This document shows, one piece after another, positions 20,835 through 60,814 of a stretch of DNA of 64,000 nt. The position numbers were made by a program, and so were the translations under genes. Under the pieces are notes generated by a model. That model saw only the letters and a list, made by a program, of their open reading frames with translations. It was not told the origin of the DNA and searched no databases. Positions within the stretch are counted from its first letter, which is position 1. Each line of letters opens with the position of its first letter. Source of the stretch: Buxus sempervirens (taxonomy: Eukaryota; Streptophyta; Magnoliopsida; Buxales; Buxaceae); contig OX387192.1 of the NCBI GenBank assembly GCA_947561395.2, positions 16,590,221 to 16,654,220 of the forward strand. The letters are read 5' to 3'.

Positions 20835-20869
20835 CTGAAAATAAGTAAGGGATGAGTTTTCAGGACTCA
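20835..20869 (-). promoter_or_regulatory. Stem-loop plus acceptor-like CAG in T1 left LTR
   Basis: On the minus strand TGAGT-CCTGAAA-ACTCA (20853-20869) is followed after 16 nt by TTATTTTCAG. It is the T1 member of the conserved stem-loop/acceptor set; the right LTR has the same at about 32795-32829. Confidence 0.7.
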
Positions 20870-21800
20870 GTAAGTAAGGCTAATATTCCCTACTTGACTA
20901 CATGCTTTAAAAATCAAATCCTTAGTTATATCATATATAAGCTTAGTAGAAACTAGCAAGACACCATTTCAAGAATAACATTTGCAATAGTAACACATGT
21001 CAATAAATTTAATCAATTACAAGGTAATAAAAACAAACATCAATGATATTAAGAAAGTAACTTTTAGTGATAACAAGAACACAATACAATTTTCAACTTA
21101 ATAATAGAATTATCACAAAATATCAACTATCCCAATCTGTAAACTAAGCACAGCTCCCTGGTCATAGCATTTTTGTGTGAACGCAATACAACTGGGTCGT
21201 GTCTGTCGGAGTAAACCGCTCTGATCAAGTACATGCATGTCGAGTCACTGCTCAGTTCCAGCGCATGTCTGTTGAGTCACCGCTCAGTTCCCATAACACG
21301 CCCGACCACCAAACGTATACACGATAATTTCCGAACATATCAATATTGTTAATTAAAGCAATAAAAGGTCACAACACTCACAAATAAAATGCAAGCAATC
21401 TGATTAAGGCAAACATAAAAAAAATAAAATCAAATCAAATAAATCGACTAGGAACTTTATAAAATCGAATTGCAACTGTAACGCCCCGAATCCGGGTTAC
21501 GTAATGGAACCGTAACTCGTACCCGAGGGTTAGATAACAAAACCGCAGGATCTATATCAAAGTGTAAGAAACATGACATTTCATTTATTTCATCAAACAC
21601 AACATCAGAGTTCGCTAAAATATCCCAATCACTAACACACAATGAATCGAAAGAATTACAATTCCAAAGTTACTCACTATCTCAAATGAAAATAGCAACT
21701 ACAATATATCTCAAAAGTCACTCAACAAAGAAATCCTCTCCCCTATACTCGGGGTAATCTGCGTCTGGCTGAACCCCACGTGTATCATCCTCACCAGGAT

Positions 21801-21844
21801 CTGAAAGCAAAACAAATCAAAACTGAATGAGATACGAATATCCC
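21801..21844 (-). promoter_or_regulatory. Stem-loop plus acceptor-like CAG in LTR A
   Basis: Minus strand GGGATA-TTCG-TATCTC (21829-21844) is followed by a pyrimidine-rich tract and GCTTTCAG at about 21801. CATGCATGTGCTACTTGCT precedes it. The 6-bp stem closes on a UUCG loop. Confidence 0.75.
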
Positions 21845-22109
21845 AGCAAGTAGCACATGCATGCACAAAACATTTATATTAGTTCTAAAACATGCTTCAA
21901 TAGTAAACCATACATCAGTAACGATAACCAACATTTAAGAGTAATCCGAATAATCCGATTACAACATATATATCGATAAAGAGCAATCTCCACAATCAAT
22001 GCATAACAGCGAGTCATAAATGAAAACATAAAACAAGACCACGGTGGACTCATGAAATAAGATTGCCCTTAACTAGGTAATGCCGAAGTTCACTATGCCA
22101 CCTCCCGGC

Positions 22110-22530
22110 TTAGGTGCGAAGCCGAGTACACGATCATTGTCTTATTGCGGGAGAACCCATCCAGTACAGTGATGAGTTGGCATGTACTAATCCAGTCACA
22201 GTCCGAGTACACGATAAAATGAGGGATAGCCGCAGCCAGCCGAGTACACGATCAAGCCTCACCGAGTACACGGTGGAAACGCGTGCGTGAACAACTCATT
22301 AGGACTAGCTAAGAAAACAATCTATTCCACTACCTAGCTCTTAATTTGACAAATGTGGATCCACACCGAGCTATGCCATCTAGACTCAAGCTAAAGCCAA
22401 AAACAGAAATCTCATTAATATTGAAGGTTTCCATACCCAAAACATGCTATCTCGAGCACACATCCATCTCTGAGTACACAGAGGAACCAACCCCAAGTAC
22501 ATGGGCATCTCCGAGTACACGGAGGTAAGG
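22110..22530 (-). repeat. Dispersed CCGAGTACACGG array in LTR A
   Basis: CCGAGTACACG recurs about seven times with irregular spacing. Several units fold, for example CTCCGAGTACACGGAG (near 22510) and ACCGAGTACACGGT (near 22262). The equivalent place in LTR G carries CCGTGTATCTCGG units. Confidence 0.75.
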
Positions 22531-25500
22531 TAATTATCCAACCATTAAGTTCACAAGAACATTCTCACAGTGTATAAAACTTCCAAAACTCAGATTTGTC
22601 CATAACAATTTAGTTTAGAAAGTCCTTTCCGAAGAAATGCTTAAAATCCTCTTTTATAGCCAAATTTGGTAAAACTGTCAAAACTCGGTTAAACCGGCAA
22701 ATTTGCATATAGATATCGAACTTTAGTAATAATATTAAATTCAGACTTGCCACCTTTAGTTGGAACTCAAACAGAAAGCTTTTCCCATAACATTTACTCT
22801 AACCCAATTTTTATGCAATCTCATATTCTCAACTCCATACTTAATATTAAGCATAAACCCATGATCAGCACCTATATCTCACTCCAATTCCCTTCCTTCA
22901 TCTCCCATTTATCTCGTAGATAATACTTCCTTATAAGTGTAGAAAAATCCCAAATTATAATTGCTGGAAAAATCTCAGAACTTATTAAAATACTCACTCT
23001 TAATTACTTAGATATATTGCTGATTTTTACACTAGTACCTGTAGAATTTCTCATACCAACCCCTCTTATTTTCCAGAAGTTCTTTAATTACTCTAGGTTA
23101 GATTCCCAAAGGTTTTTCCCCTTGCTGGAATTAAGGATTTGGGTTTGAATCACCCTAAACTAGAGCTGGGCTACAGGTCAACAATGGTCAGCAATGGTAA
23201 GCACTCTCTCTACTTTTCTAGATTCAAGTACAGCTGTAGAAATTTGATTAGGATTTATCTATTTTGTTGTAATCCAACTATTTCTGGTAATATTCTAACT
23301 CCCCAAACATGCCTCTATCATATATTTGAACCATTATAGCACAACTACTTACACTAGCAATCATTTTCCTTCCTTTCACATGGATTCCATAACTGAAATT
23401 TTTCACTTTGCCTAACACTAAACCACTGCCCTTCTTTCCCACTTCTTCCTCACACTTTGACCCTCTAGAGTATACCTAGTTTAACCTATTTAGCTAACCA
23501 ATGCCTAACCACCTGGTTTAGCTACTTATTCTCATATTCAAACCACTGACTAGTTGCCAATACCCTCTAATACTTCTTTTCTAAATATTCTTTGCCTAAG
23601 CTTCATTGTTTTCACACTTTATAAATGCTGAAAAGGTGCTGTGTTTTAACGATTCAGAACGAAACTAACTTTAAGTTAGTTATGAGAATAATGTCTAATT
23701 GATGGAAAAGAAACCGATTTTAATTTGTTAACACAAATCTGCAGCAACTCACTACTAATTTTATTTAGGTATCCTAGGATAGCAATTAGGATTTAAAACT
23801 TGAATTACCACTCCCTAAACTCAGCCGCACATGGCTGTAGCCAAAACAGATGGGCGCCAACCTCCTTCTAGGTCAGCCCTCCTTGGCGCTCATAAACTCT
23901 CTACAGATTTCTAAACCTTTAAATCCATTTACTCTTCATTTAATTCTCATAACCAGCTTCCTAGAAGGATCTCTAACCTAGACTTGAAACTAACCTTTTA
24001 AAGACCAAAGAAACCTGCTGGACGCTGACCTCCACAAGAGGTGGGCGATCCCCAGCAATGCTGGGCGCTCTCTATATATGCCCAGATTCAGATTTCAGTT
24101 AGGAGCCACATACACAAATTTATCATGGACTTGCATTCAACTCGTTTCCAATACAATTCTAACACTATAAGTATGCCTAAAACATTAGTACAAATTAATA
24201 TGATCGACCATAATGATGCATACAGCAACTGTTCATGTCTTCTCTTGAATTTTCGAAAACTGAACTTCAGCAACAGGAAACTTAGTTCTAACATGATTCT
24301 TACAGCAAATTTAACTAAGGATCTCCTTCCTCATGACAATATTTACATTTCTAATTATCAATCCAACCTGAAATCCGATTGATCTACTAGCCACCATGCT
24401 TTGAAATTGACGTCAAAACCAACAAGAACAGAGATCTATCTCATGCTCAATCTATCAACCAATTTCGAATTAGAAATCATGCAAATCGATTAAAGTGGTG
24501 CTACTAACTCTCAGATGCAAATTCGAGCTGTTGAAGACTGCAAATCTACAGTTTCAAATTTCTGTAGATGAATTCCACCCAACGATCACTTCTCCTCTGC
24601 AATTTATCTCAAGTTGCTTAAACTCTTGCAGATCTTACACCTGGTTTGAATCCTCAATAAATGAGAACGAAAACCTTACTTGCATTGATAACTCACTGAA
24701 AATTGATCTGAATTTTCAGAACTCACCTTCACTTGAAGAAATTGAAAATTCTGCTGCAGCACACTTCTATACTGATAAACAGAGCATCACGATCAGATCT
24801 CTCCTCTCTGATCAACTCAGCAATTCGGTTCCAGCTCCTGAACCCTAGCTCCTGGATCTCCTTCTCTATGAGATTTCCAAGTTTGCTCGATCAAAACATC
24901 AGCAAAAAGATCAGCGAGCCTGTTTACACCAAATTTATACTTGCCGCTCAACCAAATGTTTAATTCCTGCTTTGCTGCTTTGCCATACTACCCAAAGTTC
25001 CTACACTAGCAGCTCCATTAGATTTAAAAACAATTCTCTTTGCCACCTCATCCGAGCAAAATCAACTAATTTAAATTTCTGAAAAATTTCCTCATACCTT
25101 TATATTTAAATAACCCGACTAGCACAAGCCACCTTTCCGGGTTAAATCACTAACCTCGCTTCTCTGCAAAATTAATTAGCTAACATTAATTTAATCACTA
25201 GAAAATTAATTTTTAAATTTTCCAGAAAATTAGGGATTTTACAGCAACTTTATACAATTTAACTACATTAGTATAAGCGAAGGATGTTTCCTTAGACGGC
25301 ATGGTCACCAATAACCAATGAGTATTTTCTACTCAAACTACATCCAAGTAAATCAATAAATAAATTACTAATAATGATACTAAGAATACAGTAATTAATC
25401 ATGACAAAGCAAACCATTAATATAGCCACAAACATCTGTTAATAATGAAACGTTAAGCCTTCATTTCTTCCATTTCCTAATCCCCATGGAACCTTATGTG

Positions 25501-26742
25501 TGTGTATATCTTTAAAATCTTTTACAAATATACCTAACACATTTAATAAAATAATGAGTCCCAAACAAGTGAAGTGATTTGGTGTTTGATCTTAAAAGTG
25601 GTTCATTCTAGCATCACACTTCCACCGATCAAATTTTCTGGTATAACTAATAAAATATACATATATAAACAAGTAATTATAACTAGTGACATGGTTTCTA
25701 CGATGATGACTTAATTCTTAAATACATTAGAAAGAAATCAATCGTAAAATAAACCATTATCACTATTCTGCTACTATCCAATTTAAGAAGAAATGAATTT
25801 CTTCTGTAAATGGTACACTAACAAAAACAAGAGGAATCATTACACTGACATTGTAAATATTAATAAAGAAAAGAATTCACCATGAGGTCATTGCACTGAC
25901 ATTGTAGACATTAATAAGGAAAAGAATTCACCATGAGGTCAAAGGTTCACCATTTACGCCATGTGAAGATAGCCATGATCACAAAAGACAAAATTGGAAC
26001 CTTGGAAGACATCATCTTTTTCATTTTAAAATATTAATTTACTTTCATATAAGACAAAATAAGAAGATGATGTGTACATGGTTAACTTTTCACATAAATC
26101 ACAATAATATTGAGAGGTTTCCCAACGCAGAAAACTCATCATCACATTACATCAAAGAAATAAATAAAATAATTTGATAAAGATTAAATCAAGCCATTCA
26201 TATAAATCAATGATGAACCAAAAGGAATCATCACAATAACTTAAACTTAGGGTTTACTTCGACTGTTTGGCATAGTGAGCATAAATTATATTATCCCTGT
26301 AGAGATCTTGAATGTATGTACCCATGTAAAGAACATTAACCGAACTTACCTTCTCGTTGCAGATTTTGATTTGAAGAAGATAAGATTGTTCCTTGGCTTT
26401 CTCTCTTCCCCTCCTAGTTTTCTTTGCCTCCTACGATTCCATGAGAGAAAGATGGGGGTTAGGGATTTCCAACTCCCTAACTTAACAGAGAAAAGACAAA
26501 ATTAACCCCTTTCCTAATATTTGTATATGATGTGTGTGCAAGCACACTAGACCCTTCACAACACCAATCAGTAGCCCTTATTCTATAGACTTGACCGAGT
26601 CAATATCTTGACCAGGGTCAACCAATAATTTATTTTGACTGGGTCTCCACAATCTCCTGACCTTATGGAAATTTCGTCCTCGAAATTGTGGATTAACACG
26701 TAATATAAATAATCAATATACAATTAATAGATACATACCTTA

Positions 26743-26826: not shown

Positions 26827-28055
26827 TGTAACGCCCCGAACCCGGGTCAGTGAAAACCGGCACCCAACCCGAACCTGGTTCGCTAATGTAACAACTCGAA
26901 TTCAGTTCAACAACCAAATCTGAGGTGTTACTGGCCCATATCAAATACATCATCAATAATATATCAGACCAAAGAATTAAAATCCATTCACTTTATTATA
27001 CTATCAGAGTTGTGGAAACAAGTATGTACGGAAGTGTAGTCTAAAATCCTCAAATAAACATTTAAGTTGATCATCAATCATTAATATCAAAGTCTGGTAA
27101 AATAAAATGGTTACTATCTCTCTCATCTCTCTAGTACATCAAATCCAATGAATAATAGTCTATCAAATATGACTAAGTCTAAATCAATCATCCACCTTAA
27201 ACAAGATCCAGATAAAAGTAATCCTCCGGTGTATACTCAGCTACCTCTCCCTGGAAATCACTAAAATCCCCCTCTCGCATATCAGCTGAAAAATGAAATG
27301 AAAGTAGGGTGAGATACGAATATCCCAGTAGGTAACACATGCATGATTAAACAGTTCATATAAGTAAAATAACAGTTCATGCACGATTAAGCAATATCGA
27401 CTAAGCAGGCTCGTATAATCATTCGTATCATTCATGAATACAAAACAGTATGATAAACAGTTCTAGAGATGAATTTCAGCAAGTTCTATTATAAGAATCC
27501 AATATCAAAATCCATAACATAATTCATACTTTGCTAGGATGCACTAAACAGTCACATCCAATCAATATCTCAATCACATGCTTCCAGCATGTATACAATA
27601 ATAATAACAAGTGTTGTGATTTCAGTGTCATTTGTAGGACTCACAAAGATAAATAAACCTTTTGAGATGATTCTCAACCAATTGCTATACCATCGTGCGG
27701 CTTAGGAGCAATGCTACTAATGATACTCAAGTCCCATGTAGCGCAGCTTAGACAAAAGCCGTAGTCACTAACTTATTGCACACGTACCCATCAGAGTTGG
27801 CATGTACCACCAGCATGCAGCACCAGAATCAATACATGGAGATGGTCGCTTATCCACATGTACAGGGAATCACCAGCGGCTCACCGGGGTGTCCCTCCAG
27901 ACATAGGACCTTCCCAGACAAACTAACTTGCAAAGGAAGCGCGTCGCACAAGAGAGAAACTCAACCCAAATGACATATCCCTCAGCTATCTAGCAACAAC
28001 TATGGATCCATAACCAGCTATGCCCGCTAGACTCCAAAATTCCCTAAAATATAAT
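26827..28055 (-). mobile_element. LTR B, group F2, 5' part missing
   Basis: Starts on the plus strand TGTAACGCCCCGAACCCGGG and aligns in reverse with solo LTR C (38030-38965) and, further in, with LTR A. Similarity stops near 28050, where Tat-2 leader begins. Stem-loop and acceptor lie at 27296-27326. It sits between the end of T1 pol and Tat-2. Confidence 0.75.
27296..27326 (-). promoter_or_regulatory. Stem-loop plus acceptor-like CAG in LTR B
   Basis: Minus strand GGGATA-TTCG-TATCTC (27311-27326) precedes a pyrimidine-rich tract and TTTTTCAG. It is preceded by CATGCATGTGTTACCTACT. Confidence 0.75.
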
Positions 28056-28139
28056 ATTTCTATAAGGATTGGTGCCTAGCGGCATATAAAGGTTAAATCT
28101 GTCAATTACTTCAATATTCGGTCATCTGAGTTCTGAATT

Positions 28140-32446: not shown

Positions 32447-32449
32447 CTT

Positions 32450-34878
32450 TGTCACGCCAAGAAATCCATCACTTGTATAATGTTACGAGGTATAGGACCG
32501 GAACGCAACCTTGCTCGTAAGCGATCCCCAAGACTCATTTAATCTCATTAAATACTAAGTATAAATATTAATTTTTGCAATAATATTCAGGGTTGCAACG
32601 GAAAATAAAAAAAATATCTCATGAATAAAACTAAGGATTAATATTTGAGTTTAACTAATCTATCTGAATAACATATAACCTCCATTACAAGTTCAATGCT
32701 CAACTAGAGACAAATAAAAATATTCAATGCCCAAATCAAATATGATTTTTCCGAGCTATTCCCTTTGCTTCATTTGCACAGCCTTGTGGTTACCTGAAAA
32801 TAAGTAAGGGATGAGTTTTCAGGACTCAGTAAGTAAGGCTAATATTCCCTACTTGACTACATGCTTTAAAAATCAAATCCTTAGTTATGTCATATATAAG
32901 CTTAGTAGAAACTAGCAAGACACCATTTCAAGAATAACATTTGCAATAGTAACACATGTCAATAAATTTAATCAATTACAAGGTAATAAAAACAAACATC
33001 AATGATATTAAGAAAGTAATTCTTAGTGATAACAAGAACACAATACAATTTTCCACTTAATAATAGAATTATCACAAAATATCAACTATGCCAATCTATA
33101 AACTAAGCACAACTCCCTGGTCTTAGCATTTTTGTGTAAACGCAATACAACTGGGTCGTGTCTATCGGAGTAAACCGCTCTGATCCAATACATGCCTGTC
33201 GAGTCACTGCTCAGTTCCAGCGCATGTCTGTCGAGTCACCACTCAGTTCCCATAACACGCCCGACCACCAAACGTATACACGACAATTTCCGAACATATC
33301 GATATTGTTAATTAAAGCAATAAAAGGTCACAAAACTCACAAATAAAATGCAAGCAATCTGATTAAGGCTAACATAAAAAAAATTAAAATCAAATCAAAT
33401 AAATTGACTAGGAACTTTATAAAATCGAACCCCAACTTTATACAATTTAACTACATCAGTATAAGCGAAGGATGTTTCCTTAGACTGCATGGTCACCAAT
33501 AACCAATGAGTATTTTCTACTCAAACTACATCCAAGTAAATCAATAAATAAATTACTAATAATTATACTAATAATACAGTAATTAATCATGACAAAGCAA
33601 ACCATTAATATAGCCACAAACATCTATTAATAATGAAACGTTAAGCCTTCATTTCTTCCATTTCATAATCCCCATGGAACCTTACATGTGTGTGTATATC
33701 TTTAAAATCTTTTACAAATATACCTAACACATTTAATAAAATAATGAGTCCCAAACAAGTGAAGTGATTTGGTGTTTGATCTTAAAAGTGGTTCATTCTA
33801 GCATCACACTTCCACCGATCAAATTTTTGGGTATAACTAATAAAATATACATATATATAAGCAAGTATTTATAACTAGTGTTATGGTTTCTACGATGATG
33901 ACTTAATTCTTAAATACATTAGAAAGAAATCAATCGTAAAATAAACCATTATCACTGTACTGCTACTATCCAATTTAAGACGAAATGAACTTCTGTAAAT
34001 GGTACACTCACAAAAACAAGAGGAATCATTACACTGACATTGTAAATATTAAAAAAGAAAAGAATTCACTTTTTTTTTGGTGGAATGAAAAGAATTCACC
34101 ATGAGGCCATTGCACTGACATTGTAGACATTAATAAGAAGAAGAATTCACCATGAGGTCAAAGGTTCACCATTTACGCCATGTGAAGATAGCCATGATCA
34201 CAAAAGACAAAATTGGAACCGCGGAAGACATCAACTTTTTCATTTGAAAATATTAATTTGCTTTCATATAAGACAAAATAAGAAGATGATGCGTACATGG
34301 TTAACTTTTCACATATATTAGAATAACATTGAGACGTTTCCCAACACAGAATACTCATCATCACGTTACATCAAAGAAATAAATAAAATAATTTGATAAA
34401 GATCAAATCAAGCCACTGATATAAAATTTCAAAATCAATGATGAACCAAAGGAGTCATCACAATAACTTAAACTTAGGGTTTATGCCGACTGTTTGGCAT
34501 AGCGAGCATAAATTATATTATCCCTGTAGAGATCTTGACTGTATGTACCCATGGAAAGAACATTAACCGAACTTACCTTCTCATTGCAGATTTTGATTTG
34601 AGGAAGATAAGATAGTTCCTTGGCTTTCTCTCTTACCCTCCTAGTCCTCTTTGCCTCCTACGATTCCATGAGAGAAAGATGGGGGTTAGGGTTTTCCAAC
34701 TCCCTAACTTAACAGAGAAAAGACAAAATTAACCCCTTTCCTAATATTTGTATATGGTGTTTGTGCAGGCACACTAGACCCTGCACATCACCAATCAGTA
34801 GCCCCTATTCTATAGACTTGACCGAGTTAATGTCTTGTCCAGGGTCAACCAATAATTTATTTTGATTGGATCTCCACA
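32450..34878 (-). mobile_element. 5' LTR of T1, uninterrupted
   Basis: 2429 bp, start TGTGGAGATCC at 34878, end GGCGTGACA at 32450. Aligns end to end with the split left LTR. Donor-like GAAG/GTAAGTTCG lies near 34574, stem-loop and acceptor at about 32795-32829. A short tandem duplication around AAGAATTCACCATGAGG (34025-34160) is longer here than in the left LTR. Confidence 0.92.
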
Positions 34879-34940
34879 GGTCGTCTTCAGGTTGGGGATT
34901 TAGTAACCCATTCGTATTCAGGTCAACTAGAATCTAGTCC

Positions 34941-35972: not shown

Positions 35973-38965
35973 TGTAAAACCCCGATTTTTCACCTAATAA
36001 ATAATAAATAAAAGAAAATATGAGTTAAGTCCTAATTAAAATAAAAAGTGAAGATTTAGAGGATAATTAATCCCAATAAGTTCTAAGTTGAAAATAAAGA
36101 AATAATTTTAATGAAATTAGCCTAAAAGAATAAAAAGGGTATTTTGGTAATTTCCAGAAAAGGGTAATTAGTAAATAGATCATCAAATAATAACTAGAAT
36201 TAGAAAATAGAAGAAAACAAATTATTTTGACAAGTTAGAAATTAAAAGAAATTAATAAAAGCCTAAAATAGGGAAAAAGGGTAATTAGGAGATTTCACGT
36301 CTTAATTTGGAGAAAATAAGGTTTTAAGTGATATAAATGTTTAATTAAATATTTTGCACGAAATTAGGTTATTTTCATGAGTTTAGATAATAAGAAACTT
36401 AATTAGTATTATTTAAGTTGAAAATAGAAAGTGGAGAAAAAGTAGGAATTAAATTAGAAAGGATTAGATATTAACTAGACCATGGTTGGGTTAGCTCAAA
36501 TTAAGTTAGCCAATTAGGGTTTGTTTAGGATTTCTAAAGCTTAGTATAAATAGGAGACTAAGGTTAGAAGAGAGGGGATTTTCGTGGGTTTCTTATGGAG
36601 AGAAAAGAGGGAGAGAAAGGAAGGAGGTCTCTAATGGAGGTGTCTGACCAGCCACCATCAAAACGCGATTGGCGAAAATCCGTACGGTGGATCGCCTTCA
36701 AATTTGGAGGTTTTATTCGTGATTGATAAAACTACATTGTGAATGGTGGAGATTTGAATTGGAAGAGTCTAGCTTGGTACAGTTGGGAGCAACATTCTGG
36801 TCCAGAATTAGAAGGTGCAATAGAAGAAGGATTTAGCGTATAAGGCAAGTAGTAACCCTTGAAAAACGTGAGGAATTGCATGATTTTGATTTCTGTGATT
36901 TCATATGGATTGAACGGATTAGTCGGAATAGTATTTACATGGAATCAAACAATTTACATGTTAGTGATTTGTATTCTTGAAGGATTTATTGAATTAAGGA
37001 AGGAAACTTAGTTTGATTATGTAAATAAAGGTAGGAGGGTATTTAATTAACAAGAATTAATCTGGAAGGCTTTAGGAATGTTTTAGAATGTTATTAGATT
37101 AATTTAGACCAAAGAAACATATGGCAAAGGCATAAAAATCAGAACTTTAGAAATCTGGAAAATTCTGTTAAAAATTGCACGAGCGCCTAGGATCGCCCAG
37201 CACAGTAGAGGTAGGTGCTCTAAGTAAAATTTGTAGATTTTGGGGATTTTATAATTCGAATAAATATCCAATAATTCTTATGATTAGTTAAGCATGTTAA
37301 CATCTTTATAGGGACCTAATTAAGCTATAAAAATTATAAAATTAATTTGGAAAGATTAAGCAATAAATTGAAGGTTATGATGAAAGGATTGTTTATAAAA
37401 GAGTCAAAGGGCATGGATATTGCTAGAAATAATACTACTGAAATTTATAGCTTATAAACATCTTTTAAACTTCATTCTAGGTCTGTAGAACGTGCTGGAA
37501 AAATAAAATACAGAAAATTCAAATAGAAACTAGCTTAGGTGCTAAGGTAGGAAATTGGATTCTAATAAAAGGGATTAATAAAGAAAACTCTAAGTAAGAT
37601 TGGATTTACTTTATGTTGAGCTTTAAATAGGAATATTGGCTACTGGAATTGCATAAACTCAGATTTTATCGGATTTATGATACTTGAGTTTTATTTTGAA
37701 TATAATTGGAAGAATTGCATATGTTATTCTGAAAATGCCTATAATTGGATTTGTTATGATTGAATCATGATTTTCACATGGAATGGAATACTTGGGTATG
37801 GATTGGTATGTGGTATGATGTTGTTCTCTTTAATTTTACGGTTGGGTGATACGGCTTCTGTGGTTGAGTTGATACCAACTTTTACGGCAGAGATGGGTAA
37901 TCCTCTGGTAGAGATGTGTAATCCTTTACGGGTAAAAGTGTGTATGCCTCCTACATTAGTGTGTCCTCCCGTATGTGGTTTTATCGTGGTTTGTGTCAGT
38001 GGGCTTAGCTGTATATGGATCCATAGTTTTGGCTGGTTAGCTAAGTGGTATTTAGTTTGGATTGATTTACTCCTATATTGCGAGCGCGCTTCCCTTTGCA
38101 AGTTAGTTTGCTCTGGGAGGGTCCTATGTCTGGAGGGACACCCCGGTGAGCCGCTGGTGATTCCCTGTACATGTGGATAAGCGACCACACTCCATGTATT
38201 GATTCTGGTGCTGCATGCTGGTGGTTCGTCCAACTCTGCGGGGTTCGTGCGCAATAAGCCGGTGACTACGGCTCTTGCCTAAGCTGCGCTGCATGGGGCT
38301 TGAGTATCATCAAGTAGCACTGCCCCTAAGCCGCACGGTGGAACAGCATTTAGTTGAGTGTCATCTCAAATACTTATCATCTTTGTGAGTCCTGCAATGG
38401 CACGTGTTTTGTCGCTTTTGTCGGTTTTACCCCGTTAACATCAAGCTACTGGTATTTATACATGATCATCTGTTTTATCGCTTTATTTGGAATTGCCATG
38501 AATAACTTGGATTTCTCGTCTTATCGTTGATTAATCGAATACCTCATGACTATTTGCTTATATTGGACTGTTTCAAATTGCATACACCTGCTACTTGCTG
38601 AGATGTAAATCTCACTCCGTTTTCCCCTATATTTTTCAGGTTGCTTGGAGAGATCGCGAAGATGGGGTTTTAATTTGATGGGTAGAATTATAATTGGTAT
38701 TAATGTCACATGTTGATTAGATAAACTTAATTGTAAATTGAATTGAATATATTGATTAAAGAATTGTTTATTTTATTTGGCCACCATAACTCTGATGTAA
38801 TTGATTTATAAAAATTAAAATTATTGTGAATCTTGGTATGTATCTGACCCCAGCTTCGTGGTAACATCTCAAGTTTGATTGTTGAATCGGACTTGGGTTG
38901 TTACAGTAGCGAACCGGGTTCGGGTTGGGTGCCGGTTTGCACTGACCCGGGTTCGAGGCGTTACA
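35973..38965 (+). mobile_element. Solo LTR C, Tekay-like group F2, TSD GAGCA
   Basis: TGTAAAACCCCGATTTTTC to GGTTCGAGGCGTTACA, 2993 bp, flanked by GAGCA at 35968-35972 and 38966-38970. TATA box 36544-36552, degenerate donor GCAAGTAGTAACCC near 36846, short foldable units near 37880-37940 (CTCTGGTAGAG, TTTACGGGTAAA), stem-loop and acceptor 38599-38639. It sits in the coiled-coil codons of the NLR remnant. Confidence 0.93.
38599..38639 (+). promoter_or_regulatory. Stem-loop plus acceptor-like CAG in LTR C
   Basis: TGAGAT-GTAA-ATCTCA (38599-38614), a 6-bp perfect stem on a GNRA-type loop, is followed by a pyrimidine tract and TTTTTCAG (CAG at 38637-38639). Confidence 0.75.
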
Positions 38966-41463: not shown

Positions 41464-41772
41464 TAAGTGTCAAAAGAATGGTTGCCCCATACGTATAACC
41501 CCAAAGTAAGCATACCTTCTTCCCATCTTTTCTTCTTCCACTCTCTCTTCTCCTCTCATTCTCTACTCTCTTCACTTCTTCACACTCTTCCTATTCCCTT
41601 GTTAAGTTACTTGAAGGAACCCTTATAAGAAAGGAAGAAGAGGAACACAAGTTGGTGATTTTCATTTGGAGGTTTGTTGGGAGATTTGTGAAGAAAGCAA
41701 CCAAAGAGGCAAAGAGGTGCTACTCTTGGCTTGTTATAGGAGCAAGAGATCTTGCTTGGTTGATTACTAGAG

Positions 41773-41784
41773 GTAAGCAACACC
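41773..41784 (+). other. Putative splice donor in LTR D
   Basis: AG/GTAAGCAACACC. The extended donor GTAAGYARCACC recurs in LTRs A, E, G and, weaker, C and H, each before the stem-loop/acceptor. Here the implied intron would be about 1.6 kb. Confidence 0.5.
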
Positions 41785-43312
41785 CTCCCAACCCAAGATT
41801 TTTGTTTTTCTCATTTTGGACAAAAATGTGGAAATTTGGGGGTTCCATATAATTTGATTATCTTTGCAAATAGGAGAAGGATTTGTTAGGGGTTTGATGA
41901 GTAATAGGTAACCACACATCCTAGAGACAATTTAGAGACCAAAAACCATAGAAACGAGTGAGATTTGAAAAAACCCTAGAAATTTGCGAAATTTGGATTT
42001 TTCGCAACCTGAGAAATTTCCAAGGAGCCCGACAGAGTGCTTGAGCGCGATGTCGAGCGCTCGTTCAAAAAATTTAGTTAATACGAGGCTACTCGTTAGC
42101 GCTCGAGCGCCCCACCTGTGTTTTTTTTTAAACTCAGAACCCGAGAGTTGAGTTTTTGGCCTAAGCTGAGCGCCCAAACCAACACTCGAGCGAGCACTCA
42201 GGCGCCCATGCCCAGATTTGAGTATTTTTGGATTTTAGCACAAATCCAACTATGGATTATTTTTATTTGAATCCAACCAATGTACAAATAGGATTTAGGT
42301 GTCTAGGACGTGTATACACTAGAATCAACTCAAAATTCCAAATAACCAAGATTTTGGGTATATTCTACTGAAATAGGTTTCCTGGGAAGTTTCTGTCCCA
42401 GATTGCTATAGAAGTAGGGCAATTTAATTCTACCACTTGGAACACCTTACAAATGATTCTTGGAAGTAGAAAACCAAATCCAAATTCAAGTTGTACCTGT
42501 TTCCAAAGAGTTGGGGCCTAGGTTACCCAAGTAAGGTATGAAATGCAAGCTTTAATACTAAGAATATATTTTACTGTTATTGATTACTCTTATAAGCATG
42601 TGATATATTGTAGGGCATTGGCCCATTTGTTTGGCATGATATGAAAGGGGGGTCGGCCCGCTATTGATGTTATATATATGGAGGGCAATGGCCCAGGTTC
42701 CATGAGATATTGAAAAGGGCTCGGCCCAAGATTGACTCGGGTAAGGCCATGAGCTACCCTTGAGATTATACATGCCTATTGGCATGGTTTGACACATGAA
42801 ATTGATTGAATGAACACTTACATAATGAACAATCTTAAATTATGGATCCATAAATTTAAGTAGTGTGTTTGTATATAATGCTATGACCAAGTTATTGTTG
42901 TTCTTGTTGCACTGCATTGTTATATCATCCCGGCACCAAGCAACATCGGTGGCCAATGCCCATTGCTACGGGGAATCGGCATGGATGCCTGTACATCAAG
43001 GATAATTGGAATATGGATGCTTAACGTCAAGGGTAATCAACGTTGGATGCCTAGCCACCATGAGGAATCAATGAAGCTAGATGATGTCATGTGCAGTATG
43101 TATTAACACCCTAAATAATAACAAAGAGATAAGAATAAATGTATGATTGGTTGTTAATGGTTGACTTGTACACTTAAGCACAAATTTGCATTATATGTCT
43201 TGCACTAATTTGTTGACACTTTAACTAGTATTTCAACTACCCGCATGTCATAGTTTTACCAAGTGATAGTGACATCAACTCTATTTTCACCGAGCATGCA
43301 TGTATTGCTTAC

Positions 43313-43356
43313 TGAGACATTTGTCTCATAAGTTGTTTTTATTGTTTTGCTTTCAG
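43313..43356 (+). promoter_or_regulatory. Stem-loop plus acceptor-like CAG in LTR D
   Basis: TGAGAC-ATTT-GTCTCA gives a 10-12 nt separated perfect 6-bp stem (43313-43318/43323-43328), followed by a long U-rich tract and GCTTTCAG. Stem bases differ from LTRs A, B, C and G but still pair. Confidence 0.75.
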
Positions 43357-50542: not shown

Positions 50543-50586
50543 CTGAAAAATAGAATATAAAGTAGGGGTGAGATACGAAAATCTCA
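50543..50586 (-). promoter_or_regulatory. Stem-loop plus acceptor-like CAG in LTR E
   Basis: Minus strand TGAGAT-TTTCGT-ATCTCA (50569-50586) precedes a pyrimidine-rich tract and ATTTTTCAG. It is preceded by ATGTGTTACCTAC. Confidence 0.75.
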
Positions 50587-51601: not shown

Positions 51602-53749
51602 CCATTGTATCAGGAATCTGTATTTCATTGTTGTTTATATCATTGTTGATTCATGTTTCAATCATTAATCCAAAGTCTTGTTCCAAATTCAATTCATTAG
51701 TTTGTAATCACAATGGCCCGGTCTAGTTATGTGATAATTAAAGGTTATGTAGAGTTATAAGGTAATTTAGAGAATAAAGTTTAGGGGTAACAAGATACTT
51801 GCTATTTACGTAAGTTTAGGGATAATATGGTTCTTGCTATTTAATAAGAAGTTCAGGTAGAATTTAGGGGTGGGGACATAGTATAATAAGGTATGTGCTA
51901 TTTTAGTAGAGAAACTTAAAGTAGCCCAATTCAATTAACTAATGTGGCCTACAGGTATATAGGGTCCTTTCTCCAATGCTGATAAATTAGTTTCTGGTTT
52001 AAAGTCTTACCAGTAAGGCTTAATAGTCCTGATACTTAAAATTTATCAAAGTTAGTTCAACTAGGTTGGGTTTCTGATATAAGGTCTCTATTTGTAGAAA
52101 TCTGGTTGCTGATATATAAATTAATGTCTCTTAATTAATTAGTCTAATCTATAAAGGTTTATCTGCATTAAACTTAGAATTTCTTATTTAAGATCAAGTT
52201 TAGGCAACTAATTTCCCAAAATAATTCCCTATTTATTTTTCTGCCAAAACAGGGTATTTGATAATTTATTTTGGTCCTAAAACACCTTATGTAATGATTA
52301 AAATTTATTAAAAATGGTTTAGAATTGCAATAGGGATTAAAATACGAAAAATTGGATTTTTTGTTTAGAGCGCTCAAGACCGCTCAGGCGGTCTAGGGTT
52401 AGCGGTAGTTCAAAATCGATCGCCAACCTTCTGTCAGTTAGCGGTCTATGGTGTTCAAATTTATTGAACGAGCGTTGAGGAACGCTTAGGAGCGCTGAGA
52501 GGTCGGCGCTCAACCAAAAATAGCTACTCGACTGTGTAAAATCTGATTTTTCGTGTTCTAAGTGATTCTAACATACATATAAGGTGATTAACAAACTAAA
52601 GATATATAGATACATCATAAAAACATGCAAACGATTCGATCAATCTCAAGAACACAAAACGAACGTTAAAACTTGGTGCTACCTACCTGATTGTGCGAGT
52701 TCTTCTTCTTCCTCTGAACATAAAGCCTTCTTCTCTTCTCAAACACAGAATAAAACTTTTAAGGCGATGAAGAACCCAAGACAGATGTTCCTTCTTCTCC
52801 TTCTTCTCTTCTTCTTCTTCGGTCTTTCTCTCCCTTTCGTTTTTCTCCTTCAGCTGTCTAATACCCAAACCAAATACAATATGATGGAATATATGCTTAT
52901 CATTACTCTAGGGTATAAACCCTATTCTTTTATACTCCACGATCCTACACAACACACATGCATCACCCATTAGACAACCATCCAATTAGAACACATTTTT
53001 GGATTTACTTAATTCTTACCTCAATCTACCACGATCCAACGGTCAGATTTGCGTAAAACCCCGGATCTCCTCTATCAGTGCGATCATCTATAATTATAAT
53101 TAATATCCTTCAATAAAATTCCCGTCTCCTTAACTTAAGACTCCAAATCGACTATATTTATCATTATGCCCTTATTCCACTTATCAAGCTATAAATATCA
53201 TTATTAATTGGCAATCTAAACCCAACTTAAATCTATCATTATTTCTCAAGTCTAATAATAACTTAATTTATGTATTTAATTATTTACCAATTAATATGAA
53301 TTGGCCAAAATACCATTCCCTTGATAATTTACATCTATGCACTCGATTTCTTCCGAGATTTCTAAGTTTATTCTCTAATTTATTTTGAAAAATTTATTGA
53401 CATACCAAATATTCATATTTAGTTATTATTTATTTATTTGTTGAAAATTCTGGGTTTTACACTAAATAAGCTACAGACCAGCAAAGTTAGACCCTGTTAG
53501 GCATCATTGTGTCTGCCTGCACCACATCAGGTATTGGTGACTCCGAATGTCCCGAGGCACACATCGTACATGCGCCTCATCGTGCAAAAACCACGTGCGC
53601 ACAAAGTGAGTAGAACCCATCTTTTGAAATAAACTTAGTAGTCTTGTATTTAACCTTGAAGTCCTTGGGACTTGTTATATTTCTTATATATATATATACA
53701 CTTTTGATATGCACAAGCATGAACTGTTCTTCCACTATCACTTGTTAGG

Positions 53750-54113: not shown

Positions 54114-55485
54114 TTGTTAGGAAAAATTTTAAATTATCCGCATTTTTATTTGGTCGAAAGACCAACCCGTGATGACTGGGGACCAGTGAGTGCCTTGGAG
54201 AGGCAAACCTGGTTCTAGGTCGTTACAGGTTGGATGTAACCTTTGTGTCCAATTTGGGCTTAACTGAACCTAGAAGCCCTTTTGGAGTTTGGTTGTTTTG
54301 ATTGATTTTAGCCATTTGTTCTCTTTTGAGATTGTCTTAATCTTTTTGGTGGGTTTGCAGTGGTCTGTGGGCCTTTTGGTGGGCCTCCACAGTGGTTCCC
54401 TTTTGATTGATTTATCTTGCTTAAATTTGATGCCAAAAGTGATCTAGGGATTGGCATGGGGCCTTCCCTAGGCTTAGATTTAGAAATCTAAGTCTTGTGA
54501 GGTGAGGGGATAGAGCCCCCTAATCTTGCATTGCTTTTGGTGAGTTACTTCTCTTTTGAAAAGGAAAAGACTGTGGCTCAGTACGCCTTACCTTCGGTCC
54601 ACAGCCACACCACCTAATCCTACAAACATGCTTGCCTTTTTGGGCTTTCAATGTGGGCCTCTGAGAGTGTGGCCCTTTAGTTACATTTTTCTCTTATTTA
54701 TTTAGCCTTAATTAAATGAGTACGCATGGGTGGGCCCTGTTGGAAGGCCCATCGGAATCTCATTTCGGCCTTTGAGAGGCCCAATCCCAATTAGGGTTCT
54801 AGGAAGACCAAGAATCCTTCTGGAATGCCTTGGATTGATTTAAATGGATTTTAAGGCTTTATTGATAAAAAAAATCTCATTTTTGTATTTGTTTTTGGGT
54901 TGAATTGGGGACACAGACCGATCAACCCACATTTCTTTTTATGACCGAGATAAGATATCAATTAACACAGAATAAACTGTATAGTGTATATAGTTATGCA
55001 CGATCTCCTCAATTTTTTGAAGATCAGCCCTTGACAGATATGAATAGTGACAAGGCATCATAAATATTGATTTTATGATTTTCTCTAATTTTATATTTAT
55101 TTTATTGGATTTTCTAAAGATATTTATGGATTTAATGTTATTTTATTCAAGATATTTTGTTTTTGTACATTATTCATGTCCTTTTGCAACCTATTTTTCC
55201 ACTTGGCAATGTGCCTTGCATGTTTTGTCATTTGGCAAGGCTTTCTGCATTTAATTACAGTTTCACACTTTCAAGTGTTTTGACCATATTTCTCTCATCT
55301 GGACTCCGATTTGCGCAAACTCAGTTGCGTTGAAACCGTGTCGGGATTTCTTGTCCATTGGAATGGCATAGGATGGTCAGTTCAAGCTTGAATAAGGCAT
55401 CAATTTCTACTCCTCAGTTTTAGCCTGTCTTTTAGGGTTTCTTCTCTTAGCTTTTTAAAGGGGGTGCAAAAATTGGGTGCTTACA

Positions 55486-56745
55486 TTAAGCATTGCAGAC
55501 AATTACATCCCTCTCATTTATATCTCTAACTATTCTAATGGCTCAAGGGTGACACGTGCAGCATCCCACATTTGGTCTTTTTTCAAGTTTGTAATTGGTC
55601 ATTGCATTGTTACGGTCTGCTACATTGGTCAATGGTCATTGTTGTGGGTGCAGGACATTTGTTGTATTTTCTAGTTTGTAATTGTTTTATGTGAGGCCCA
55701 CTTGAAAAACACTAACGGTGGGATGCTACACGTCACGACATCCCATTCCCACAGCAGTGACGAATGCAATAAAACACTGTAACAGATTTCATTCTGACCG
55801 GGGTCAATTGGGACGTCAACTACTCAAGTTGACACAATAGTACAAGTACAGATTAGACCTGGGCTTTGGCTTTTTGTTAGCATGATCTAAGCTTGCACTC
55901 ACTGAGTAGACGGAAGAGCTGAATCTGAGCTTGGGGAACAATGATTGAGGAAAAGCTCATTTCCTTAATTAGTTGTGTTTTATGGAAAGTAAAGGAAAAT
56001 GAACTTTGCATATGTTTTGTTCATTAGAAAACGTAGGCCCATCGGAAAGTAATTTTTTAAAAGATCCTATTTTTCCACTAAAAGACCTATAATGTTTTCC
56101 TCTCAAAAGATGGGGAGATAAAGTAAAAAGAAAGTTATATACACTTTATCTTTCCTTTCCACTACTTTCCACCTAATCAAATATAGCCTTAACAAGCTTA
56201 AATTGTGCTTAGGTGGGCTCGAGGTTCAGTTCATTTATTTTATAATAAAATGCATTTATAGAAATAAAAACAAAATAATTTCTATAAGTTCTACAATAAA
56301 ATATTATTATTTATAGTGTTTTAATTTGGTCCTCGCATCTACATAATACCAAATCAATTTGCCACTGTGGACTTCAGCCCTCATAGTCCAATCAAAGTTT
56401 TCTCCTTTAGTTTTTTTCTCAATCCTTACATACTTGAGCTATACATATACTAGGGGAATATAGCGTGTAGCAAATATGAAAGAGAATTGAGGAAGTTCGG
56501 GTATTAAAATGTTAGGCGGTTAGTTATTGATACACATGACATTAAAAAATGGGTATAGGAGTTAATTTGATAAAAAAAAAATTGAGGGTTCTTTTGGTAT
56601 CAAATGTTAGCCAGAAAACAAGGTGTTCGATTTATATATACATACAACCTCCAGCCAAGTTGATCATGCATGGCGTGTGTCAAGGGGTATTTATAAAGGG
56701 AAAGTGTGGTGTAGCATTTATGTTGTTTTGAGCTTAAAGCAATTT
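55486..56745. other. Mostly unassigned DNA with a possible small foldback element
   Basis: No gene seen. 55549-55738 has inverted ends GTGACACGTGCAGCATCCCA and (inverted) GTGACGTGTAGCATCCCAC, with partial pairing continuing inward, which may be an unclassified MITE; no clear duplication is visible. About 56000-56200 has GGAAAGTAAAGGAAAA and an inverted TTTCCTTTCC-type partner, also MITE-like but without clear ends. Confidence 0.4.
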
Positions 56746-59700
56746 TGTAAAATCCCAAATTTTTAATGAAATTAAAAATTATTGGTTTAGTAATTAAGTT
56801 ATGGTTAATTAGTAATTTTGTGGAGGAAGGAGACCAAGAAGTTAACCGGGGACTTTTGATCAAAACTGGAAAGGAAAATTTTCAATTAATAGGTCGGAGC
56901 TAATGCTAAGGTTTGATTTTGGTTGGTTGGTGAGGGTTTGCTGATGTGGCATGCAAGAGATAATAGCAAATTTAGCATGCTGGTGTGGGGATTTTGGTGG
57001 AGTGTAAAAGTAGGTGATCCTATTTTAATTCAACAGTGGACGGCAACTATAAATACCAATGAATTGGGTTCGTTGGTTTATTTTGTCCTTTGAGCGATTT
57101 CTGCTGGAGAGATCAAAGAGAGAAGAGGGAGTCGATCTAGGGGTTTGGAGAGTCTGATTCGAAAAATTCTGGAGATTAGAGGAATTTTCTTGTGGTCGTT
57201 TGGTTCTTTCCCAATGGAGTTGAAATCTCTTGCGGCAGCAACTCCAGTTTCATTCAGAAGCTGTCATTCCTGCAGAAATTGAGATCCATCAGGTAAGATC
57301 AGTTCAATTAAAGTGTAGTTCGTGAAAGTTCACCCCTATTTGAGGAAGAGATTCTAATTTGGATAGATCTGATTCAGTTATAGAAGTCTCTGCAGATTTG
57401 TGTAGTTCGGTGGAATCTGGAATGTGATTTCAGAATTTCCTTTGTGTAGATGAGGGTGCAGCAATTTGAAATTGTAGCCTAGAGGTAAGTAGCACCTATG
57501 AATTCATTTTTGGATTGAGTTGAATTAAATTAATGAATTGAATGAATGTTTGGGTTGCTGGAAAAAAAAATTCTGTGGGAATGATGAGGTGCGGCTAATT
57601 CATTAGGGAATATTTCTTGCATGAATTAAATTCATAATTGTGTTTATAGATTATTTAGATGATGAGAAATGTGCTGGAGATGGAATAAAGAAAGGAGAAT
57701 TGTTCAGTGAAGGTAGATTTGCTGCTGCCGTAAGTCACCTTTTTGTTCATGGCTGGGCGCCCAGGGCTGCTAATCTGCCCAGGGTTGGCGCCCATGCCAA
57801 TTTGACTCTTTTTTCTTTAGCTAGCGTCAAGGGCAACCTAGGTCACTGGTGGTTGGCGCCCAGGTAAAATCCAACACATAAATCAGGTAAAATCCAACAT
57901 ATAACCAGGGTAAAGTCCAGCATATACATTAACAAATAAATCAGTACCTAAACTAGCACATAAATCAGCTCTTATAGTGTTCAGTTGGTTTATTAAATTT
58001 GGAATTTACTTGGGTGATTTAGCTATATATGAATAAGGGATTGTGGGTGAATAATAAGATGCAGAAATTAAGGTTATAGAATTATTCTTTAAAGAGCAAT
58101 ATCGTGTCTGATTTTTCATTGGAGGCATTGGAGAATAATTTCAGAAGTTAAGAAATCTAAGATGAGGAGTGATCGTGAGTTGGAGTTTTGCTACAGAAAT
58201 TCTGATTTGCTGAAATGGAGTTTTAACAAACTGAAATTACACCTAAGAAGTAAGTAGCACACCTTTTCTCTGATTTGCAACCGGAAATTCGATTAGAAGC
58301 ATGATTTAATGAGCTGCACCTGAGTTTAATTGGCAGTGAGCTTTTATTCATGAGTTTTTCTGTTATGCGTATGAAATTCTGATTTGGTAATTCAATTGAT
58401 GTTAAACTAGGTTGCTAGAAGGGGTAAAGGAAGAATTACCTCATTGGTTAAGGGGAATCCTAGTTCAGATATGTGGGAATTAGAGTTGCAGGAGATTAAA
58501 AGTTTATTCGGCATGTTTTTTTTTTGTCATGGTGCTGAGTGGGGCTGACTTGCAAGAGGTCAGCACCCACTCTAATTTTTAAGAACAGAGTGTTGGTGCT
58601 GGTTACATACATTGAATAGAAGTCAAAGCTCAGTTTTTCCACATTAGCCTAGTACGGCTGTAACACCAGTAGGAAGTTTCATTTGTTTTAAAGTGAAGGA
58701 AGGCTTGGACTGACTCTTTCAATTGTTCATTGAGGTCAGGACCAATCTTATTCACATGAGTCAAACATGGTTGCTACACCAGCAGAAATTTCAGTGGACA
58801 AAAGGTCAAAACATTTATTCTATGAATCAAAATAAATGTTAGCATCAGATTATTGTGATTTGAAGTTAAGGATTGTACACAATAAAATTTTAGAAACCTG
58901 GAGAATGTTGGAGAGGGGGGGGGCGGGGGGGCGCCAACCTCTGTAGGTCAGCGCTAGCTCCTCTTTTCTTCTACCCTAGTGCAGCTAATTTAGCTGAGGA
59001 ATTCCCACTAGTAAGATGCAGAAAAATTGAACAGTTAAATTGGAAAAGCATTGGCTGAAATCTGCAGCTATAGAAGTGGGCGACTGATTTAGTATAATTA
59101 ACAGTTGCTGGTTTAGAATTATAGTTGCTATTCTATAAGATCTAGTTATGTGTTAGTAAATAAGTTGGATGAATAAGAACTGATGATATTGTATAAACCT
59201 AAGGGTAGTTGGAAATCCATAAAGCCTTAATAGGAATTATATAAATTCTGAAGTGATTTTGATAATAAAATTCTTACAATTACAATAGTATGAGTATGGG
59301 AGTAATGAATGATGCTTTAACCCCTTAGACACTAATACATAGGGCCTAAATAGGAGTAAAACAAGTTCTGAGTTGGTTAGTTATAATAATGACTATATCC
59401 TACAAGGATAAGGAAAGGAAATATTAATAAAGAATGTGAATACATGTAAAGTGGAAACTTCAGTTTATATTGTTATAAGTAAATGGGTTATGATCTTTAC
59501 TGAATTAGTGTATTCGGCAGCCATGTTTTACCACTGGAATTTCAGTTTTGGGTGTTATTTTTGAGCTGGAAATTGAAGTATTATAAACAGCCAAACATTA
59601 GTATATTTTATTGTTAAGCTTATGGTTTTCCTATATTTTTGTAACTGCTTTTAATTTTCATTGTGGGAGTCATTAGGGAATTTATTTAGAAGTATTTAGA

Positions 59701-60114
59701 GGACCTTTAAAGGTTGTGGCACATTGGAAATAGGATCACAATTAAGATTTTAATTATTGAAAACGATGTGGGGAATTTTAGAAGAAATATGACGGTTAAG
59801 TAAGGAATTGGGGATTTAGGCTAAATGAGAGTGTTATGAGTATAAATGTTAATTGTAAACTATTGTTTAGGTTTTAAGCAAGTAATACAAGACAAAATTA
59901 AGTAACATAGTTAAATTTTGGTTTCAATACTCGGATTTGCCGGTTTAACCGAAATTGAGCAATTTCACCAAACTTTGACTATAAAAAGAGAAATTTATGC
60001 AATACTTTGAAAAAGGACTTAAAATCAAATTATTTTGGATAAATGTGATTATTTGGTTTTCTCATTGTACTCGAATGATGTTTTGGGACTTTTGATGGAT
60101 TGATGGTTATCTTA

Positions 60115-60500
60115 CCTCCATGTATCTTGGGGATGCCCCGTGTATCTCGGAATGCTGTTGCCTCCGTGTATCTCGGAGATGCCCCGTGTAGCTCGGGATG
60201 ATATGATTGAGATTGAGATGGGTTGTGCTTATTGGAGTTCTCTGTTGGTTTTGGTTTTAAAGTCTAGTGGGCATAGCTCGATATGGATCCTTGTTAGGAG
60301 CTAAATAGTGGAAAGGATTGTTCTTTGCTAGTTGTAACACCTTGTTCACGCACGCGTTTCCATCGTGTATCTCGATGAGGCCTTCTCTGTATCTGGTTGG
60401 CTGCGGCTATGATAGGATAGTACATGCCAACCCATTACTGTATCTGAATGGGTTCTTCCACAATAAGTCGATGACCGTGTAGCTCGGCTTCGCTCATAAG
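60115..60500 (+). repeat. CCGTGTATCTCGG array in LTR G
   Basis: Five or more units; CTCCGTGTATCTCGGAG (near 60162) and CATCGTGTATCTCGATG (near 60362) are perfect 5-bp hairpins on the same 7-nt loop TGTATCT with different stems. Confidence 0.8.
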
Positions 60501-60770
60501 CCGGGAGGTGGCATAGTGAGCATGGTTTTACACTAGTTAAAGGCAGTCTTATTTCATGAGTCCTGCAGTGACTTATCGTCTGTTGATTTGATATTACATA
60601 TATGTTTGCTAAACTGGATTATTCTTATATCTCATACTAATCGATGAATTACTGTTGAATTACTTGGGTTTTTTCGGAACTGATGTGTTAGTGCCACTGT
60701 TGCATTATTTACAACTGTATCATATTTTAGAACTGATAAACTGTACTTGAGCATGCATGTGCTGCTTACT

Positions 60771-60814
60771 GGGATATTCGTATCTCATTCTTTTCCGTTT
60801 TGTTTTGTTTTCAG
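60771..60814 (+). promoter_or_regulatory. Stem-loop plus acceptor-like CAG in LTR G
   Basis: GGGATA-TTCG-TATCTC (60771-60786) is followed by a U-rich tract and TTTTCAG (CAG at 60812-60814). GCATGCATGTGCTGCTTACT precedes it. Confidence 0.75.

Follow-up and report, generated by a model that had tools for sequence, protein, structure and literature searches.

A covarying hairpin ahead of a candidate 3' splice site in the long terminal repeats of Tekay-like chromoviruses of Buxus sempervirens

How the single transcript of a long terminal repeat (LTR) retrotransposon is divided between translation and replication has been answered for few elements, e.g., BARE, and the question is raised again by a 64,000-nucleotide (nt) stretch of the Buxus sempervirens genome (assembly GCA_947561395.2, contig OX387192.1, positions 16,590,221 to 16,654,220 of the forward strand), called the window here. 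It contains seven elements, T1, A, B, C, D, E and G, whose LTRs we take, following a preliminary description of the window and general knowledge, to be those of Tekay-like chromoviruses. That description proposed that all seven carry a stem-loop just before an acceptor-like CAG, that the stem-loop is a selected RNA structure, and that it may have a role in the use of a 3' splice site. In the present study, the stem-loop, designated SL2, was followed through the 676-Mb genome. The fold is under selection and stands directly ahead of a pyrimidine-rich tract and a YAG (Y, pyrimidine), and we judge it probable, from the arrangement of sequence signals, that it belongs to a structured 3' splice site that ends an intron lying wholly inside the LTR.

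Covariation of the hairpin SL2

SL2 and a CAG downstream of it were found on the sense strand of all of the seven elements (Table 1). The distance between the two, formerly put at 15-35 nt, was measured as 15-25 nt, and the positions of the CAG ends agree with those given before except for B, where the CAG lies at 27288-27286 instead of 27296. A single lead motif shared by all elements, as was also proposed, was not borne out, the lead being TTAGCCTTACTTAC in T1 and CACCTGCTACTTGC in C. An Rfam scan of the window gave no match at the gathering score.

In the genome searches, the reversed pattern was used as a control. The hairpin, tract and CAG with the inner stem left free (ACTGRG..CTCA..TTTTCAG) gave 7,992 matches against 15 in the control, and the leads CATGTGYTACYTRCT, GCATGTRYTGCTTACT and CACCTGCTACTTGCT gave 4,508, 1,469 and 964 matches against 3, 0 and 0, respectively. 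The T1-type lead is by itself non-diagnostic: TTAGCCTTACTTACT was at the control level genome-wide (5 versus 4 matches), yet the hairpin was present in 5/5 of its matches, and CTTACTTACT, combined with TTTNCAG and an unconstrained interior, gave 11 matches, below the 21 of the control, with the hairpin in 4 of the 11. A pattern without A at stem position 5 and with a free partner gave 346 matches against 10, and from it the new arms GAGTTT/AAACTC, GGGTTTC/GAGACTC, GGGTTTC/GAAACTC and GRGCA/TGCTC were obtained.

For the analysis of covariation, 149 rows minus two chance matches (L124 and L125) gave 147 oriented copies, and 104 distinct copies were left after removal of duplicates. Of the 147 rows, 52 came from the pattern without A at position 5, which fixed pairs 1-4, while pairs 2-4 were free in the 95 lead-based or window rows; the group 1 rows were 54 loci chosen for differing strings among the 100 matches listed of the 346, plus L077-L081. 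Pairs were counted from the ends of the arms, and the MAFFT alignment of the mixed families placed gaps within SL2. As a null, the same number of changes per column was placed randomly on a tree built from the flanks in 2,000 runs (minimum p=0.0005).

Over the 104 rows, pair 5 was A-U in 54, U-A in 30, G-U in 11, C-G in 3, U-G in 1 and unpaired in 5, counts that are not natural frequencies because one search pattern excluded A at this position, and pair 6 was U-A in 56, C-G in 16, U-G in 11, A-U in 3 and unpaired in 18. The two pairs together were paired in 0.89 of cells against 0.27 in the null (p=0.0005), with a sum of G of 164.6 against 64.3 (p=0.0115), and pair 5 alone was significant for both pairing (p=0.0005) and G (p=0.0075). 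Pair 7 had p=0.0425 for G and a non-significant p=0.45 for pairing. When the register was slid, one of eight control pairs had a high paired fraction (p=0.0095, with an invariant G) and none had a significant G. Pairs 2 to 4 vary less: in the 95 rows in which they were free, pair 2 was G-C in 92 and A-C in 3, pair 3 was A-U in 61, G-U in 33 and C-U in 1, and pair 4 was G-C in 93 and G-U in 2, pair 3 over all 104 rows being A-U in 66, G-U in 37 and other in 1. Among the 69 strings listed of the hairpin, tract and CAG matches, there were 26 distinct hairpins, 25 of which pair at position 5 and 22 at position 6.

Pairs 2-6 of SL2 contained 62 G.U-type and 13 A.C-type cells, and a second hairpin, SL1, described below, contained 27 and 12. 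Since the other strand would swap these counts, the excess of the G.U type means that the sense RNA folds better, and in SL2 it favours sense RNA over a DNA palindrome. The SL2 loops include UUCG, GUAA, GUGA, GCGA and, once, GAAA, which belong to tetraloop classes that are stable RNA types. The folding z-score was at most -1.7 in 10 of 12 stretches; the fold of window positions 43295-43325 (z 0.40) is uninformative, as this stretch ends 3 nt short of the stem.

The coordinated change of bases on both sides with pairing kept, noticed at first in seven elements, thus holds in 104 distinct copies, and UUCG and GNRA-type loops recur in the wider copy set. Covariation in a large alignment had been named beforehand as a point on which the proposal of a selected RNA structure would turn, and it was significant in the 104 rows by the tree-based simulation. 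Chance and plain descent are rejected by this null, the slid registers and the shuffles, and these results support SL2 as a conserved structured RNA element with covariation beyond phylogeny.

A second hairpin and the acceptor region

T1-type LTRs have a second covarying hairpin, SL1, five nucleotides upstream of SL2 (31 distinct rows), which surfaced upstream of matches to a pattern that did not specify it. Its arms are GGAGU/ACUCC, UGAGG/CCUCA, UAGGG/CCCUA, CGAGGC/GCCUCG and others. The 31 rows exclude those without T at position 5 as well as L127 and L133, and for four of them (L077-L080) the search pattern had part of the 3' arm fixed. SL1 cells were paired in 90.3% (0.90 against 0.63 in the tree-based null, p=0.0025; G p=0.0235), and slid registers were not significant (p 0.39-0.70). 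Two-sided changes were found in 28 of 186 cells, a level matched by 0 of 500 shuffles, and the paired share, 94% in register, fell to 18-45% when the whole structure was slid by 1-3 columns. The changes in SL1 are independent of those in SL2.

Loop bases 9-12 of SL1, ATTA, were kept in 23, 22, 23 and 22 of 23 distinct copies while the stem varies, and such a nearly invariant loop over a covarying stem suggests a contact with a protein or a tertiary contact. The spacer between SL1 and SL2 in T1-type LTRs is CUUAC or UUUAC, which resembles a branch point; L133 has a nine-base spacer (CTTACTTAC), and in L087, L088 and L097, outside the SL1 set, SL1 is weak or present in another register only. In many copies of group 2, which consists of A, B, C, D, E, G and their relatives, CATGCATG stands just upstream of the spacer, where T1-type LTRs have SL1. 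We take it to be similar to the plant RY element, and it could be a dimerisation palindrome. A palindromic GCATGCAT is found just upstream in group 2 families.

Downstream of SL2, 64 of the 82 distinct lead-based copies had no AG within 15 nt, and the first AG was that of a YAG in 62 of these 64 (CAG 57, TAG 5, other 2). An early AG was scarcer than after shuffling (22% versus 52%), and in 17 of the 18 copies with such an AG the next one further on was a YAG. Pyrimidines made up 0.86 of the 15 nt leading to the first AG, compared with 0.47 of the 30 nt that follow it, so that a U2-type 3' splice site's pyrimidine-rich tract and YAG are both present. In group 1, D and G, the spacer reads CTTAC or TTTAC, as a branch-point candidate of the form YTNAY would, in a stretch of which the search patterns fixed a part. 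This arrangement of hairpin and candidate acceptor is kept across families whose LTRs otherwise hardly align: with the B LTR as reference, BLAST gave no match for D and T1b and only pieces of 32-55 nt for A and G.

The candidate intron and its alternatives

If the CAG is an acceptor, a donor should precede it. Candidate donors of T1, A, C, D and E are listed in Table 1, the string of T1 reading GAGAAG, then GTAAGTTCG, in the LTR comparison. In B, the candidate is ATACGAG, then GTAGGTGA, and the CAG ends 1,456 nt on, followed by U5, the primer site and gag; GTTGAG, then GTAAGTAGG, in the element f5 implies an intron of 833 nt, and AAACAG, then GTAGGTAGC, in G implies one of 2,966 nt. The string CAGGTAGGTAGCAY, common to E and G, had 139 genome matches against 0 in the control. 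The donor string of C, GTATAAGGYAAGTAGTAAC, has 911 genome copies with GC in 100/100 of the matches listed, and a GC-AG intron may be fixed in this family of hundreds of copies. In all four LTRs with both ends defined, a top-scoring donor lies at position 303, 335, 429 or 518; for D, E and G, the GT donor scoring best in the stretch scanned is far upstream, in a matching place. These donors support a putative intron of about 0.8-3 kb that would lie inside the LTR and end at the CAG. Purines are more frequent in putative exon 1 than in the intron in 7/7 elements, and U is less frequent in 6/7, D being the exception (32% versus 31% U in the intron); the exon-1 starts were inferred, three of them being set by hand at 120 nt ahead of the donor.

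On this basis, the following course of events can be proposed. Transcription would begin in the LTR, not more than a few hundred bases from its start, and give a leader exon, short and rich in purines, up to the 5' splice site. The intron would run from there to the hairpin, the pyrimidine-rich tract and the CAG, and U5, the tRNA primer-binding site and gag would belong to the exon that follows. SL2 would fold directly upstream of the tract; in T1-type LTRs, SL1 would leave CUUAC or UUUAC single-stranded as the branch-point candidate, and U2 would pair with these five open bases between the hairpins. SL2 would move the CAG closer to the branch point, yet crowd the tract, and the folds would set the use of the acceptor by the U2 small nuclear ribonucleoprotein and U2AF. 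With a slow acceptor, part of the RNA would be spliced for translation, and unspliced genomic RNA would be kept for packaging and reverse transcription. We infer that the folds promote or limit splicing, the direction and the regulators being conjectural. A bolder and rather doubtful version is a structured 3' splice site specific to retroelements, in which a five-nucleotide branch point would be held open between two covarying hairpins, the SL1 loop would be read by a protein (a host splicing factor or Gag), and the fate of each transcript, spliced mRNA or unspliced genome, would depend on the binding of the folds or on their melting.

The 3' splice-site role envisaged in the preliminary description gains from the consensus-like donors in matching places and from the T1-type SL1 that frames a branch-point-like spacer, and a number of observations count against it. 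An AG occurs 3-5 nt after SL2 in 18 of the 82 copies (14 CAG, 1 TAG and 3 AAG), mostly as the CACAG of D-type loci, so that the AG-free zone is not clean, and the spacer of the A and C families is CTTGC, which lacks the branch A. As for the donors, a site at position 162 of B ties with the candidate (9.5, to one decimal), the best GT donor of C lies elsewhere than the candidate, and the donor weight matrix was an approximate one. Scores of single LTRs against Markov shuffles are weak (P 0.01-0.69, in a scan that covered A over 2.6 kb without its true 5' part, the full LTR showing the A donor), and the argument therefore rests on the repeated position of the donor. Exon 2 is not U-poor (27-41% U versus 31-40% in the intron). 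Concerning the folds, pair 6 of SL2 reached significance in pairing (p=0.0025), its G being non-significant (p=0.26), and L009 folds no better than shuffled sequences (z -0.30). In two of the five measures of the SL1 shuffle test, namely double-change pairs (4 versus 2.1, reached by 31/500 shuffles) and pair types (9 versus 9.5, reached by 476/500), SL1 is not clearly above chance, and SL1 is absent from group 2 save for a different one in L094 (TAGCAT/ATGCTA).

Intron-less LTRs would be expected because spliced RNA, if reverse transcribed, would leave such copies, and their lack belongs on the same side. Exact junction patterns, which would miss diverged junctions, found none in the genome for B, where the two matches were both unspliced with CAG changed to AAG, and gave no match for G. 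The junction pattern of C had one match, ACAGG, which looks unspliced; this pattern fits an exon ending in RNAG (GT donor after GTAGAG) and not the GC-type donor after GTATAAG. The absence of intron-less B and G copies fits replication of unspliced RNA only, and fits no splicing equally.

Further splice-like signals were seen outside the LTR. An acceptor-like site is found at the start of gag in 4 of the 5 loci with a primer site found: it reads TTTTGCAG, then ATGGCT, in three B-class loci (L009 at about 3119-3145; also L011, L014 and L139 for the site) and TCTATAG, then ATGTCG, in f5. Splicing from the LTR donor to this site would remove the primer site, and the mRNA would not be reverse-transcribable. 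In L082, a donor-like AAAG, then GTAAGTTATT, lies at 3636, past the primer-binding site of a G-class element, and the leader of this element may hold a second intron.

The hairpin and the U-rich CA might instead mark the RNA 3' end at the R-U5 border, the fold masking the 5' copy as poly(A) hairpins do in certain retroviruses, and in plants a U-rich stretch with CA at its end could plausibly serve as a cleavage site too. PMC3601003 notes stem-loops for the long R regions of retroviral LTRs. In the 60 nt preceding the YAG, 1 of 132 rows has AATAAA and 3 of 132 have one or other of six variants, a scarcity that is not decisive since plant poly(A) signals are loose. Past the initial 10 nt, the first TTT[CTG]A is followed by G in 68 of 82 copies and by another base in 11, the site being absent in 3, and a 3' end would leave the donors unexplained; we therefore regard this account as unlikely.

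That the folds serve packaging or dimerisation of the genomic RNA, with a YAG nearby by chance, seems improbable to us as well. The nearly invariant ATTA loop of SL1 and the palindromic GCATGCAT of group 2 families would suit such a role, and leader hairpins are typical of packaging signals, but it does not explain why a pyrimidine-rich tract and YAG stand close by in unrelated families, nor the donors in matching places.

That a transcription factor binds the motif as a DNA palindrome, with no RNA structure, is very improbable, and this reading was rejected. TGAGAC..GTCTCA is indeed palindromic and has the RY-like CATGCATG as a neighbour, the invariant 3' base of pair 3 could reflect a plain sequence constraint on CTCA too, and at position 7, which is unpaired in shorter hairpins, A.C-type cells (19) outnumber the G.U type (6); against this, 103 of 104 rows have A-T or G-T at pair 3 and none has A-C, several different arms keep pairing, and SL1 varies independently of SL2. 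Common descent of a hairpin under no present constraint, to which the near-invariance of pairs 2 and 4 even in rows with pairs 2-4 free might point, is likewise hardly credible and was rejected, as the simulation that keeps the tree and the changes per column gave far less pairing than was observed.

Table 1. Positions in the window of the acceptor regions, candidate donors and LTRs of the seven elements.
Element	Feature	Position	Strand	Details
T1	Acceptor region, 3' LTR copy	20835..20892	-	SL1 20892-20875; CTTAC spacer; SL2 20869-20853; pyrimidine-rich tract; CAG 20837-20835
T1	Acceptor region, 5' LTR copy	32794..32851	-	SL1 32851-32834; spacer; SL2 32828-32812; CAG 32796-32794
A	Acceptor region	21801..21845	-	SL2 21845-21828; tract; CAG 21803-21801
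B	Acceptor region	27286..27327	-	SL2 27327-27310; tract; CAG 27288-27286
C	Acceptor region	38599..38639	+	SL2 38599-38614 with GUAA loop; tract; CAG 38637-38639
D	Acceptor region	43313..43356	+	SL2 43313-43328; tract; CAG 43354-43356
E	Acceptor region	50543..50586	-	SL2 50586-50569; tract; CAG 50545-50543
G	Acceptor region	60770..60814	+	SL2 60770-60787; tract; CAG 60812-60814
T1	Candidate donor	34575..34578	-	GAGAAG, then GTAAGTTCGG; G of GT at 34576, LTR position 303; best-scoring of LTR
A	Candidate donor	24725..24728	-	GTGAAG, then GTGAGTTCT; G of GT at 24726, LTR position 518; best-scoring of LTR
C	Candidate GC-type donor	36836..36856	+	GCGTATAAG, then GCAAGTAGTAAC (AAG, then GCAAGT); TATAAATAG at 36545
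D	Candidate donor	41762..41781	+	GATTACTAGAG, then GTAAGCAAC (CTAGAG, then GTAAGC)
E	Candidate donor	52678..52696	-	GCACAATCAG, then GTAGGTAGC (AATCAG before it); TATAAAAG about 250 nt upstream (52934)
T1	5' LTR	32450..34878	-	2,429 bp; TGTGGAGATC...TGGCGTGACA, then TGGTATCAGAGC primer-binding site
T1	3' LTR	~26651-20490	-	Pieces 20490-21480 and 25245-26651, interrupted by insertion A
A	LTR-length insertion	21477..25243	-	3,767 bp; 5-bp target repeat GTTGC on both sides; within T1 3' LTR

Concerning the elements themselves, the two LTR copies of T1 are 96.5% alike over 992 bp and 92.5% alike over 1,450 bp, and T1 is older than A because A is inserted inside its 3' LTR. The LTR of B (L009/L010, 99.8% alike) measures 2,345 bp and has a TATA at around position 225, then a purine-rich stretch. 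TG...CA ends together with the TGGTATCAGAGC primer site, presumably of the initiator-Met tRNA type, are present in B, f5 and T1, and G has the 3' end and the primer site; A has both LTR ends and no adjoining primer site. B and f5 were scanned for protein domains: SH3_Tf2-1 was found in the integrase of both (87.6 and 97.2 bits, respectively), and a Chromo match occurred only in f5, just under the threshold (24.9 bits against a cut-off of 25.1). T1-type acceptors at C3:11684269, 11691206 and 11698143 lie on one strand with both intervals at 6,937 bp, a spacing that tandem elements in the order LTR-body-LTR-body-LTR would give.

Comparison with known systems

In retroviruses, a donor in the leader combined with weak or folded acceptors preserves a pool of unspliced genomic RNA; the well-known retroviral acceptors are far downstream, whereas the whole candidate intron here would lie in the LTR. 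In yeast introns, a hairpin between the branch point and the 3' splice site shortens the effective distance to the AG. SL2 would shorten the distance from branch point to AG likewise, though the yeast introns are those of genes and the present ones would be those of mobile elements, and we know of no yeast intron in which a pair of hairpins frames a five-nucleotide spacer.

Among plant elements, BARE1 of barley (Copia) produces alternatively spliced RNA with separate pools for translation and replication, only the unspliced RNA being replicated, according to the portion of PMC3735527 available to us. Its intron is 104 nt long and lies at the end of gag, in contrast to the candidate intron within the LTR, and no RNA fold comparable to SL2 is described in that portion. 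The Ty3/Gypsy elements Ogre, CRR and Bagy2 have spliced transcripts too; in the same portion (PMC3735527), their splicing is between open reading frames, for removal of rt or for env RNA, and an LTR leader intron is not described. For Tekay elements, neither an LTR leader intron nor a hairpin at the acceptor is mentioned in the available portions of the open-access literature covered (PMC7730604, PMC2533021, PMC3601003, PMC10226581, PMC4598772, PMC3735527).

Both spliced RNAs of retrotransposons and splice sites with a structure are known already, and what would be new is one that covaries, is located wholly within the LTR and is so abundant. If the structured 3' splice site is real, an abundant lineage of plant retrotransposons gains a compact and testable cis element, for which thousands of natural variants would serve as ready mutants, and wherever its LTRs insert, a donor, intron and folded acceptor would come with them.

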